Shown here one piece after another: positions 1,141-55,708 of a DNA stretch of 64,000 nucleotides (positions are counted from its first letter, which is position 1; each line of letters begins with the position of its first letter). Origin of the DNA: Ruminococcus sp. (GTDB taxonomy: Bacteria; Bacillota; Clostridia; Oscillospirales; Ruminococcaceae); assembly GCA_021770655.1 (NCBI GenBank), contig JAETQO010000001.1, positions 62,001 through 126,000 on the forward strand, in the 5' to 3' direction. Made by a program: the position numbers and the translations under genes. Below the pieces are notes generated by a model. It made no database searches. It was not told the origin of the DNA and was given only the letters and a program-made list of their open reading frames with translations.

Positions 1141-1284
1141 AAAATACAGATTCGGGTTTGGCATTTGGGGCTTGGTATTGTTTATTCTTGTGATGATACC
1201 GAGGCGAATATTCCAAATTTGACGGAAGTGCAACTTTTAAAGCTAAGTTTTATAAAATGCACTTGGATTAAAGAGGTAATTGAA

Positions 1285-1746
1285 ATGAAAAAAATTCTTG
1301 TTATACACGGACCAAACTTAAATCTGCTCGGTGAACGTGAACCGGGCGTATATGGAAATGATTCTTATGAATCTATTAATAATGAAATCATAGAGCATGC
1401 AATTAAATATCAGTTCCATTGTGATGTTTTTCAGTCTAATCACGAGGGTGAAATAATCGATCAGCTTCACCTTGCAAGAAAAAAATATGACGGTGTTGTT
1501 CTTAATGCAGGCGCATACACTCACTACAGCTATGCAATCAGAGACGCTATTGCGGCAATCAGGATTCCTGTTATTGAAGTTCATCTGAGCAATATCCACT
1601 CCCGCGACGAGTTCAGACATACATCGGTCATTGCGCCTGTATGCGCAGGACAGATAAGCGGATTCGGTAAATTTTCTTATCTAATGGGGGTTGACGCACT
1701 TAATTATATTTGGAACAGCGGCGAAAGCGGTGAGGATAATGACTAA
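1285..1746 (+). CDS. aroQ: Type II 3-dehydroquinate dehydratase
   Basis: Converts 3-dehydroquinate to 3-dehydroshikimate in the shikimate pathway as a cytoplasmic dodecamer. The protein is 153 residues, the usual type II size. Visible family blocks are [16 protein letters not shown] with the catalytic Tyr, [15 protein letters not shown], and [17 protein letters not shown] with the catalytic His region, followed by [12 protein letters not shown]. The reading frame is open further upstream, but the ATG at 1285 has an AGAGG SD and begins exactly at the conserved [11 protein letters not shown] strand. The 3' end overlaps the start of the M24 peptidase by eight bases, so the two are cotranscribed. 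No other aro gene is in the window. Confidence 0.95.
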
Positions 1747-2803
1747 TCTTGAAAAACTCCAGAGCAGAGTAGCTGAAACAGCAGACTGTGCCGTAATCAC
1801 CGATGACGTAAACAGGCGGTATTTTACCTCGATGAAATCAAGCGCAGGAACGCTTGTGGTTTTTCCTGAATGTTCATACTTCATAATTGATTTTCGTTAT
1901 ATAGAGAAAGCAAGAAAGACTGTTACTTCCTGTGATGTAATATTGCAGGATAGGCTATATGAGCAGATCAATGCTTTGATAAATCGTCATAATGCGAAGT
2001 CTGTTGCGGTAAATTCCGATACCTGTACTTTATCAGAATTGTTGGCATATCAGAAAAAGCTTAACGCTGAGGTGAAAACCGATAATAAGCTTGCTGATAT
2101 AATCAGAAACATAAGAGTTATTAAATCACAGGAAGAAATTGATAAGATCATTACGGCGCAAAGGATCGCAGAAAAAGGCTTTGAGCATATGCTGGATTAC
2201 ATTTGTGAGGGCAGAACTGAACGGGAAATCCAGCTGGAGCTTGATTATTTCATGCTTAGCAACGGTGCGGAAGCGCTTTCTTTCGACACTATAGCTTTGT
2301 CCGGAAAGAACACGTCATTACCTCATGGAGTGCCGTCGGATAAAAAGATAGAAAGCGGAGATTTCGTACTTCTCGATTACGGTGCTGTTTATGACGGCTG
2401 GCACAGCGATATGACCAGAACCATATGCGTCGGTAAGCCGAGCGATGAAATGAAACTGATTTATAATACTGTGCTAAAAGCACAGCTTGCCGCTTTGCAG
2501 GCTGTAAAGGCCGGCATATCCGGGAAGACGTTTGACAGAATCGCACGGGATATTATATCTGATGCCGGCTTCGGAGAGTGTTTCGGACATTCACTAGGTC
2601 ATGGAGTGGGTATGGAAATTCACGAAAGCCCTTATGCTTCTCCAAGCAGGGAGGACATTCTGGAGGAGAACTCAATTGTGACCGTTGAGCCGGGTATTTA
2701 TATTGAAGATGAATTCGGCGTGAGGATAGAGGACTTTGTTGTCGTCACTAAAGGTGGATGTATTAATATGACAAAAGCTCCTAAAGAACTTATCTGTTTG
2801 TAA
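1739..2803 (+). CDS. pepP: M24-family Xaa-Pro aminopeptidase
   Basis: A cytoplasmic metallo-aminopeptidase that removes N-terminal residues preceding proline. It has 354 residues: an N-terminal creatinase-like domain (about 1-125) and a C-terminal pita-bread M24 domain. The dinuclear metal ligands are present: two Asp in [17 protein letters not shown], His in [16 protein letters not shown], and two Glu in [18 protein letters not shown]. The chosen ATG lies inside the end of aroQ, giving an eight-base overlap and probable coupling; an upstream in-frame start would overlap aroQ much more. This gene commonly lies next to efp in Firmicutes, as it does here. The symbol is by family and the exact dipeptide preference is unknown. 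Confidence 0.9.
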
Positions 2804-3996: not shown

Positions 3997-4033
3997 TCTC
4001 ATAAAATGTTCAGCTAAAATTCAATAATATGTT

Positions 4034-4152
4034 TCAGGGGTGGTGAGATTCCACACCGGAGGTGAGCAGAGAAAATCTGTAAGTCCTCGACCGCGAAAGC
4101 GCTGATTCGGTGCAAATCCGAAACCGACGGTTAAAGTCCGGATGGAAGAAAC
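4034..4152 (+). ncRNA. FMN riboswitch (RFN element)
   Basis: The sequence follows the RFN consensus: an AGGGGTGGTGAG opening, the CACCGGAGGT block, CCTCGACCGCGAAAGCGC, the GATTCGGTGCAAATCCGAAACCGACGGT block, and the closing AGTCCGGATGGAAGA. It lies just upstream of a riboflavin transporter gene and is followed by an intrinsic terminator, as expected for a transcriptional OFF switch responding to FMN. Confidence 0.96.
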
Positions 4153-4177
4153 GACAGATTAATTTTGCATCTTTTTG

Positions 4178-6272: not shown

Positions 6273-6287
6273 AAAATTCTTGAATTT

Positions 6288-6385
6288 CCTCATCTTTCGG
6301 AAATAACCGCAGGATTTAGCACCTTAGCTGAAAGCTAGGTTGCCGGGCTTCACAGGACCTGTTTCCTCCACCGCTCTTGATAAGG
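6288..6385 (-). ncRNA. SAM-I (S-box) riboswitch
   Basis: Read on the minus strand, the conserved S-box order is present: P1 strand CCTTATC, CAAGAGCGGTGGAGG, the GAAGCCCGGCAACC core, GGTGCTAAATCCTGC, then GAAAGATGAGG closing P1 (CCTTATC with GATGAGG). It precedes metK and is followed by a terminator, the standard transcriptional OFF arrangement. Confidence 0.97.
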
Positions 6386-6407
6386 CTATTTAATTTTAAC
6401 AATTACA

Positions 6408-9522: not shown

Positions 9523-9712
9523 TTAAGGCAACACTGCACAATTACCGCCTAACGGCTTTGTGAATGTCTAACTTGCCAATTTTCCGTTATCTTGCACAGA
9601 AACTCCTTGAAAGACACAAGTATTCCTGCGTCGTTTCTATACAATCTAACGAAAACTAACGAAAAATTTTCTGCGTTATTCGCACACAATAGTTGTGCGG
9701 TGTTACCTTAAA
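9523..9712 (-). repeat. TTAA-ended structured repeat, copy 1 (190 bp)
   Basis: The ends are inverted copies: TTAAGGCAACACTGCACAA at the left and TTGTGCGGTGTTACCTTAA at the right. The interior matches copies 2 and 3 nearly base for base. Strand is assigned as the one whose RNA folds with G-U pairs. This copy is longer than the others (190 against 179) because of an extra 11-base unit: CTAACGAAAA occurs twice in tandem around 9647-9666. It lies between the trkA promoter and the trkA SD, so it is transcribed in the structured orientation as part of the trkA leader. Confidence 0.85.
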
Positions 9713-9882: not shown

Positions 9883-9969
9883 GCCGCTGTGGCGGAACAG
9901 GCAGACGCAAGGGACTTAAAATCCCTCGGTAGCAATACCGTACCGGTTCAAGTCCGGTTAGCGGCACCA
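9883..9969 (+). tRNA. tRNA-Leu (anticodon UAA)
   Basis: An 87-base class II tRNA with a 7-bp acceptor stem (GCCGCTG / TAGCGGC, one wobble), D arm, anticodon stem AGGGA/TCCCT around loop CTTAAAA giving anticodon UAA, a long variable arm (TCGGTAGCAATACCGTA), T arm CCGGTTCAAGTCCGG, and encoded CCA after the discriminator A. It reads UUA codons. Confidence 0.97.
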
Positions 9970-26687: not shown

Positions 26688-26866
26688 TTAAGGTAACACC
26701 GCACAACTATTGTGTGCGGATAACGCGGAAAATTTTTCGTTAGATTGTATAGAAACGACGCAGGAATACTTGTGTCTTTCAAGGAGTTTCTGTGCAAGAT
26801 AACGGAAAATTGGCAAGTTAGACGTGCTCAAAGCTGTTAGGCGGTAGTTGTGCGGTTTTGCCTTAA
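26688..26866 (+). repeat. TTAA-ended structured repeat, copy 2 (179 bp)
   Basis: The same element as copies 1 and 3, here with the structured strand on plus. Ends: TTAAGGTAACACCGCACAAC and GTTGTGCGGTTTTGCCTTAA. Internal order: a terminal palindrome (CCGCACA ... TGTGCGG), GATAACGCGGAAAATT, CGTTAGATTGTATAGAAAC, GACGCA-GGAATACT-TGTGTC, GTTTCTGTGCAAGATAACG, GGAAAATTGGCAAGTTAGAC, and the right terminal repeat. It sits between the divergent promoters of the VTT-domain gene and ahcY, outside both predicted transcripts. Confidence 0.88.
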
Positions 26867-55529: not shown

Positions 55530-55708
55530 TTAAGTCAGTACCGCATAACTACCGCCTAACGGCTTTGTGTACGTCTAACTTGCCAATTTTCCGTTATCTT
55601 GCACACAAACTCCTTGAAAGACACTAGTATTCCTGCGTCGTTTCTATACAATCTAACGAAAAATTTTCTGCGTTATCCGCACACATTAGTTGTGCGGTGT
55701 TGCCTTAA
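55530..55708 (-). repeat. TTAA-ended structured repeat, copy 3 (179 bp)
   Basis: Ends TTAAGTCAGTACCGCATAAC and GTTGTGCGGTGTTGCCTTAA-type; interior near-identical to copies 1 and 2. Its right-hand TTAA contributes the TAA stop of the LCP gene. The structured strand is minus, the same direction as LCP transcription, so the element should be present in the 3' UTR. Small differences from copy 2 include ACTAGTGTC for ACTTGTGTC and GTTTGTGTG for GTTTCTGTG. Confidence 0.86.

Follow-up and report, generated by a model that had tools for sequence, protein, structure and literature searches.

The repeat at position 9523 of the window (the whole 64,000-nucleotide stretch that was analyzed, 62001-126000 of a Ruminococcus sp. 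contig) and its two relatives there are copies of a single element, for which the following description is well supported: it is an IS5-type MITE, one strand of which folds, and this strand-specific fold is under selection at the level of spreading lineages.

Copies of the element in the window

The first-pass annotation of this DNA reported three copies, the second of them inverted, and all three are present in that arrangement; the end it gave for copy 1 (9712) lies one base too far and should read 9711. It also described TTAA-bounded ends with inverted repeats of about 20 bp. The terminal inverted repeats are real and form part of a near-complete palindrome, but the TTAA is the duplicated target and not the end of the element. 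The strand given below for each copy is the one that folds (plus for copy 2, minus for copies 1 and 3).

9523..9711, minus strand: copy 1 with the TTAA target duplication on either side; the element itself occupies 9527-9707 (181 bp)
9598..9638, minus strand: hairpin module of copy 1 (covariance model R1, 50.1 bits)
26688..26866, plus strand: copy 2 with the TTAA target duplication on either side; the element itself occupies 26692-26862 (171 bp)
26719..26725, plus strand: first direct repeat GATAACG of copy 2, from the sequence
26751..26791, plus strand: hairpin module of copy 2 (R1, 50.1 bits, the sequence belonging to the R1 seed; 29-nt core 26757-26785)
26798..26804, plus strand: second direct repeat GATAACG of copy 2, from the sequence
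26833..26842, plus strand: side hairpin, GCT-GTTA-GGC, within the 3' arm of copy 2; the forms seen between species are GCC-GTYA-GGC and GGC-GTYA-GCC
55530..55708, minus strand: copy 3 with the TTAA target duplication on either side; the element itself occupies 55534-55704 (171 bp) and has one decayed end
55605..55645, minus strand: hairpin module of copy 3 (R1, 48.1 bits)

Copy 1 is 10 bp longer by virtue of a short internal duplication (TTTTCGTTAG), and the GATAACG repeats that had been noticed on either side of the hairpin are real, as placed above for copy 2. Elsewhere in the window there are Rfam matches at the gathering score to an FMN riboswitch (4026-4157), a SAM riboswitch (6287-6386, minus strand) and a tRNA (9883-9966).

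Copy number, target duplications and shorter forms

Searching the full genome (2.66 Mb in 92 contigs) with the element sequence, as the first-pass annotation had suggested, yielded approximately 130 places, or one per roughly 20 kb. With at most three mismatches, a core pattern matched 75 times, a right-end pattern 107 times and a left-end pattern 99 times, and the same patterns reversed gave no match in this genome at that tolerance. The 130 places are clusters of the 75 core matches, 100 of the 107 right-end matches and the 99 left-end matches, taken with flanks of up to 700 bp per side.

By script, both ends are present in 101 of the 130 places. The 4-bp flanks of these are identical in 84 cases, one base off in 12 and two or more bases off in 5. 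Nine different words occur among the identical flanks: TTAA (61), TATA (10), TTTA (4), TAAA (3), TTAG (2), and CTAA, ATAA, CTTG and TTAT once each. Since the duplicated words are not confined to TTAA, we regard TTAA as the preferred target, lying outside the element. Measured from GG to CC, the copies fall into length classes of 155-190 bp (53), 110-154 bp (7), 80-109 bp (30) and less than 80 bp (9). Two places (L120 and L165, 280 and 283 bp) were excluded from the size range because the script had paired the wrong right end; the other 99 of the 101 two-ended places span 46-181 bp, which leaves no room for a transposase gene.

Many places are internally deleted, and a deletion between the two GATAACG repeats would yield a form of 92 bp. 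When 18 short and 41 long copies were compared over 92 shared columns, the nearest-neighbour value was 0.378 against 0.295 expected (p 0.215). As the short copies are not clearly closer to each other than to long ones, the 92-bp forms do not clearly constitute a separate lineage, and likely arise by recurrent deletion in place. Duplications of 4 bp flank short forms too (25 of the 30 in the 80-109 bp class and 8 of the 9 below 80 bp), and movement of the short forms is therefore possible; as these derivatives include ones that have no module, the ends alone may suffice for it.

At most 29 of the 130 places have a single end; two of them are at contig edges, and in at least two (L073 and L092) a decayed second end can be seen by eye. 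In some one-ended places, such as L089, L104 and L187, one end is intact and the other side breaks off beside the hairpin. The truncated side of L104 adjoins what by eye appears to be one half of a tRNA, the 3' one; the only tRNA that ARAGORN reported is a tRNA-Lys further off, at 1163-1238 of that locus. We also noticed by eye a second family of short palindromes next to several copies, L099, L100, L102 and L088 among them, built around CCGCCGTACGGCGG with arms TCTTTCCCG/CGGGAAAGA, which has a REP-like look.

IS5-family transposons with the same or similar ends

The ends of the element read GGYAACACCGCACAA. Sister species contain IS5-family elements with ends identical or almost identical to these and with TTAA, CTAA or CTAG duplications, and on this ground the classification of our element as an IS5-type MITE is supported. 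In one such genome (G002), the element at 1360-2495 of locus L194 encodes a 325-aa IS5-family transposase that scores 320.8 bits against NF033581 (cut-off 140) and also matches PF01609 and PF05598; the ends of this element are GGCAACACCGCATAT and GGCAACACCGCACAG, with CTAA at each side. A second genome (G022) has two homologues with GGCAACACCGCACAA at both ends, flanked by TTAA or CTAA, and a further copy, its gene in pieces, with CTAG at each side. A third (G023) has one copy with ends GGCAACACCGCGCAA and GGCAACACCGCACAA and CTAA at each side. For the homologues in G022 the identity is 58-59% along most of the protein's length. Ends are common to the element and the IS5-family loci L194, L368, L369, L373 and L375, and the tip module described below is absent from these five loci.

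Together with the 4-bp duplications, these transposons bear out the earlier proposal of a MITE-like mobile element. The transposase with matching ends, for which a search had also been suggested, was found in sister species (G002, G022 and G023) and not in the element's own genome. The element shares with IS5-family insertion sequences the ends (GGCAACACCGCACAA, the same or nearly so) and the 4-bp TTAA, CTAA or CTAG duplications, and differs from them in having no transposase gene and in an interior that folds and bears a conserved tip module.

A matching transposase in the same genome is usual for an IS5-type element, if not strictly required; none was found in the element's own genome, where the best protein reaches 22% identity (E 2.4e-4). 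The sole DDE_Tnp_1 match there (L203, E 4.3e-7) was considered as a partner and rejected, the element ends being absent from its 3.3-kb locus. Among 29 genomes of the genus, the module is present in 14 (with 83 matches in the element's own genome) and a strong transposase match in the three named above, none of which has the module; the 14 genomes with the module have a weak transposase match at best (G013, 35% identity, E 1.6e-15). The element and its presumed transposase thus never occur in one genome of the 29. Given that module and strong transposase lie in separate genomes, and that no partner is found at home, the elements in the window are probably stranded, or served by some other transposase.

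A strand-specific fold conserved between lineages

The plus strand of copy 2 has a predicted folding energy of -82.2 kcal/mol, compared with a mean of -42.9 for 200 shuffles (z -10.7), whereas the opposite strand reaches -44.6 kcal/mol (z -4.4). We aligned 39 elements: the three window copies, six other copies from the same genome and 30 from other genomes or contigs. Five entries were left out by length, as were loci with no recognizable end and near-duplicates. Eight rows come from one MAG (Lapin-021__bin38) and nine from the element's own genome, so that cells of the alignment are not independent.

RNAalifold predicted 54 pairs from these rows, and double compensatory changes occur in 36 of the 54; a lack of compensatory change had been named in the first-pass annotation as a refuting outcome, and such changes are present. 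Standard pairs fill 97.5% of cells; shuffles reach 82.9%, and sliding the partner gives no more than 46.6%. There are 282 double-change cells against 78 in shuffles; none of 500 shuffles reached the observed value on any of five measures, the structure scored having been predicted from the same 39-row alignment, which is a favourable bias. Over all rows the paired cells comprise 1812 Watson-Crick, 227 G-U, 19 A-C and 34 other combinations. The 30 rows from elsewhere contain 183 G-U against 7 A-C cells, or 87 against 7 in columns where a Watson-Crick pair is the most frequent one. A ratio of 183 to 7 is far from the 1:1 expected if either strand would do, and so points to strand specificity, although the cells are not independent. 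The asymmetry between strands that had earlier been read from the wobble pairs is therefore confirmed, both by energy and by this count.

A mutational origin for the pairing has to be weighed at this point. An ordinary MITE might have a fold of no function, its arms being kept complementary by replication slippage or template switching. Such correction of palindrome arms is a known mutational process, and it fits both the near-complete palindrome and the free decay of single copies. It should yield perfect pairs, however, and offers no reason for the excess of G-U over A-C. Nor does it explain the side hairpin, both sides of which lie within the 3' arm and whose middle pair is CG in 21 sequences and GC in 15, or the occurrence of a single module on elements with different arms (see below). 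We consider this account quite improbable.

Decay of the fold in resident copies

Among 49 long copies in the element's own genome, rare changes (those in at most two copies) at Watson-Crick pairs produced G-U 29 times, A-C 39 times and other combinations 52 times, and the first two figures do not differ significantly (p 0.27). With shared variants included, the changes were 90 G-U, 73 A-C and 60 other. The rate of change per copy was 0.041 at paired and 0.024 at unpaired sites. From the excess of G-U between lineages and its absence among rare changes within the genome, the fold seems to be selected in spreading lineages, with no sign of upkeep at single insertion sites; we conclude from these comparisons that the decay of resident copies is largely indifferent to the fold.

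These figures also bear on the proposal that the copies serve the host as regulatory RNA where they lie, in the manner of the Neisseria CREE/NEMIS hairpins, and are kept by selection at single sites. Roles of this kind have been proposed for other bacterial MITEs (PMC2229807, PMC2649163), and the dense spacing of the copies would suit them. Using 125 of the 130 places, with neighbours defined by the longest open stretch rather than by real gene calls, we found the left neighbour on the opposite strand in 66 cases and on the same strand in 41 (p 0.02, uncorrected), and the right neighbour on the same strand in 57 and the opposite in 61 (p 0.78). Such counts are not enough to claim a role in untranslated regions, and we set that idea aside. 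Against regulation by resident copies, the rare changes break pairs with no preference for G-U, mutation is at least as frequent at paired sites as at unpaired ones, and places that have lost an end or part of the interior are frequent. We therefore judge host regulation to be improbable.

Alternatively, the functional form of the folded strand may be single-stranded DNA and not RNA. In the template of the lagging strand, for example, when DNA is replicated or repaired, the hairpin would aid re-priming or access by the transposase. G-T pairs would be tolerated there too, so the strand bias could be accommodated, and there is no clear bias in gene orientation (25 of the 125 places lie along both neighbours and 36 against both). 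IS5-type transposition, on the other hand, is thought to proceed via double-stranded DNA. We regard this alternative as unlikely, if less so than the two discussed above. Of the original proposal of selection at the RNA level, selection of a one-strand fold is supported by the many doubly changed pairs and by the excess of wobble pairs over A-C mismatches between lineages; the selected form may be RNA or single-stranded DNA.

The hairpin tip module

The rod formed by the folded strand is capped by a tip module with the layout GACGCAGG-stem-loop-TCAAGGA. The pairing of GACGCA with TGTGTC that had been drawn for the tip is possible, and is that of minimum energy in the element's own lineage, but a different pairing is conserved between species: GGNNNNC-NNNN-GNNNNUC, with GACGCA and AAGGA opposed and unpaired.

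To follow the module more widely we scanned GTDB for GACGCAGGNNNNCYNNNGNNNNTCAAGGA, which gave at least 115 stretches, 80 of them taken as loci. Three of the 80 (two from Acidobacteria and one from Methyloceanibacter) look like chance matches in coding DNA. Among the matches listed, the remaining loci are mostly labelled Clostridia, many of them from rumen or gut, with one labelled Bacteroides; the records with relatives of the element are labelled mostly Ruminococcus, Oscillospiraceae, Ruminiclostridium or Clostridia.

We aligned 52 distinct 41-nt module sequences from the scan loci and the genus together with that of the window, for a total of 53. In this alignment 91.7% of cells are paired against 68.0% in shuffles and the covariation is 0.584 against 0.195, whereas double-change pairs (10 against 8.6) and further pair types (23 against 22.1) are not clearly above shuffles; as the scan pattern fixed about 17 positions, loop letters included, invariance at those positions is partly built in, and the four inner stem pairs were free. 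The inner stem occurs as AAUAC/GUAUU, CUUAC/GUAAG, AAGGC/GCCUU and CGGGC/GCCCG. The construction of a covariance model had been recommended at the outset, and the one built for the tip module (R1) does find matches in related genomes. For the class, 41 of 391 genomes match, spread over 24 of the 223 genera sampled, and in a sample of the phylum 4 of 398 genomes do, the element's own genome counted and one of the four (L404) being coding-like by eye. In IMG/VR the pattern is found in six contigs, one of which (L361) is likewise coding-like by eye.

We considered whether the folded strand could be a short gene, with AAGGAG followed by GTG or ATG, and rejected this, since by eye the frame and the start vary between species. 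In Clostridiaceae bacterium strain 9 a group II intron match (L248, 231-307) lies about 2.3 kb from an element that bears the module.

The module on elements with other ends

The module is also carried by elements with other ends. Palindromic carriers next to TA have the ends GGAAACACTGATTAAATC, GGGCACCTCTAAAAACC, TACTAAGTATCC and TACTAATCCTTGATAAAAA; further carriers end in TATAGTCGACGC, TATACTCCTTAACGG or CTAGTG; and carriers of approximately 275 bp, with TA at their tips, have ends such as TAGCCTTAGCAACC, TACCCTCTATTAACAATG, TAGCCGTCGGAG and TAGTCCAACGGG. Repeated copies with clear boundaries are available for TACCCTCTATT (seven aligned, G332) and TAGCCTTAGC (four, G365). Because the ends and target words differ, these carriers presumably use other transposases.

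All 30 trimmed elements of the short families (154-192 bp) fold better on the module strand. In the long families (275-281 bp) that strand has the lower energy in 11 of 20, no clear preference, for a total of 41 of 50 trimmed elements; the module strand was favoured in 15 hand-chosen loci with untrimmed flanks as well. The strand bias therefore belongs to the short elements, and the module to both.

Several of the long elements have ends of a different kind. In one genome (G455) three module-bearing elements of 273-275 bp (L403 1440-1714, minus; L407 1440-1712, minus; L410 1331-1603, plus) have terminal stretches of about 10 bases that vary between copies and are near-complementary within each copy, which is unlike the work of a transposase with one fixed end sequence; their 3' end resembles a tRNA T-arm (GGGTTCNACTCCC). 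The L410 locus also gives a sub-threshold match to a T-box leader (1271-1749, minus strand; 47.2 bits against a gathering score of 93, E 1.5e-7). As this match spans 479 bases and the model 219, the element there seems to be inserted in a T-box leader. By eye, five TA-flanked elements of approximately 275 bp (L240, L247, L256, L349 and L356) have ends like the 3' part of a tRNA, with a TTCGANTC-like loop and a stem. ARAGORN, run on 28 plus 5 loci to test a tRNA-like origin of some ends, nevertheless found nothing, and so gave no tRNA for these five elements.

We know of no other tip module that is common to repeat families with different ends. We tentatively suggest, with rather less than even confidence, that the module is a portable RNA or single-strand part that was acquired separately by unrelated mobile elements of the Clostridia, and that one widespread host factor favours the spread of its carriers. 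These would comprise the IS5-type MITEs (at TTAA), short TA-flanked elements, CTAG-flanked elements and the TA-flanked elements of approximately 275 bp, with terminal stems that vary between families. If this is true, DNA parasites that use different transposases would have one handle in common.

Relation to known families

The first-pass annotation had recognized no known family, and among RNA families this holds: at the curated score, Rfam 15 gave no match on any element, whether in the window, at 12 module loci or at 20 more. The same was true of seven further loci (E up to 0.01), and a lax search with copy 2 (E up to 10) found only a microRNA family, at E 1.3. Literature searches with the end and core sequences gave matches for the 11-base word ACACCGCACAA alone, none about bacterial repeats by title, and searches for MITEs in Ruminococcus with inverted repeats, or tied to the IS5 family, gave nothing; supplements and most subscription journals lay outside the scope of both.

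Small, multi-copy, non-coding mobile repeats with transcripts predicted to fold include bcr1 of the Bacillus cereus group. The main text of a paper on new bacterial RNAs (PMC11109978) has neither "Ruminococ" nor "inverted repeat" nor "repeat element". MITEs whose transcripts fold are well documented in bacteria (PMC2229807, PMC2649163). RNase III can bind and cut the CREE/NEMIS hairpins of Neisseria. The Correia/NEMIS/CREE repeats, as described in those two papers, resemble our element in their length of 100-200 bp, terminal inverted repeats, target duplication, longer and shorter forms, and transcripts predicted to form long stem-loops; they differ, in a comparison by description only, in their hosts and in having TA at their termini. 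ERIC of enterobacteria, RUP of pneumococcus and YPAL of Yersinia are likewise mobile repeats of small size that encode no protein and occur in many copies, again with transcripts for which folding is predicted (PMC2229807). ERIC and RUP differ from our element in the TA at their termini, again by description only, and YPAL in duplications of variable size (PMC2229807).

Proposed mechanism

We infer, as our best mechanism, that the tip of the fold is a handle for a shared host factor. We lean slightly towards the corresponding reading of the whole: an IS5-type MITE is moved in trans, and its one-strand fold is bound at the tip module by a common host factor, aiding survival or multiplication. 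The element would insert at TTAA-like sites with duplication of 4 bp and would be mobilized by an IS5-family transposase that recognizes the same ends, as the ends, the duplications and the partners in sister species suggest. Between the ends, one strand would fold into a rod with the small side hairpin and the tip module, and would act most likely as RNA, with single-stranded DNA at replication forks as a second possibility. The tip may then be bound by a factor that these hosts share, and this binding may help the element to survive or to multiply. The tip would in this way be a portable handle, carried by elements with other ends too.

Significance

Bacteria commonly carry small palindromic repeats, which are usually taken as debris or, in a few cases, as regulators. 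In the present family two levels of selection can be separated, as lineages preserve the fold and resident copies lose it. That one hairpin motif recurs on elements with ends of many kinds suggests recognition of something besides the transposase, and the question of why many bacterial MITEs fold well on one strand becomes directly testable.
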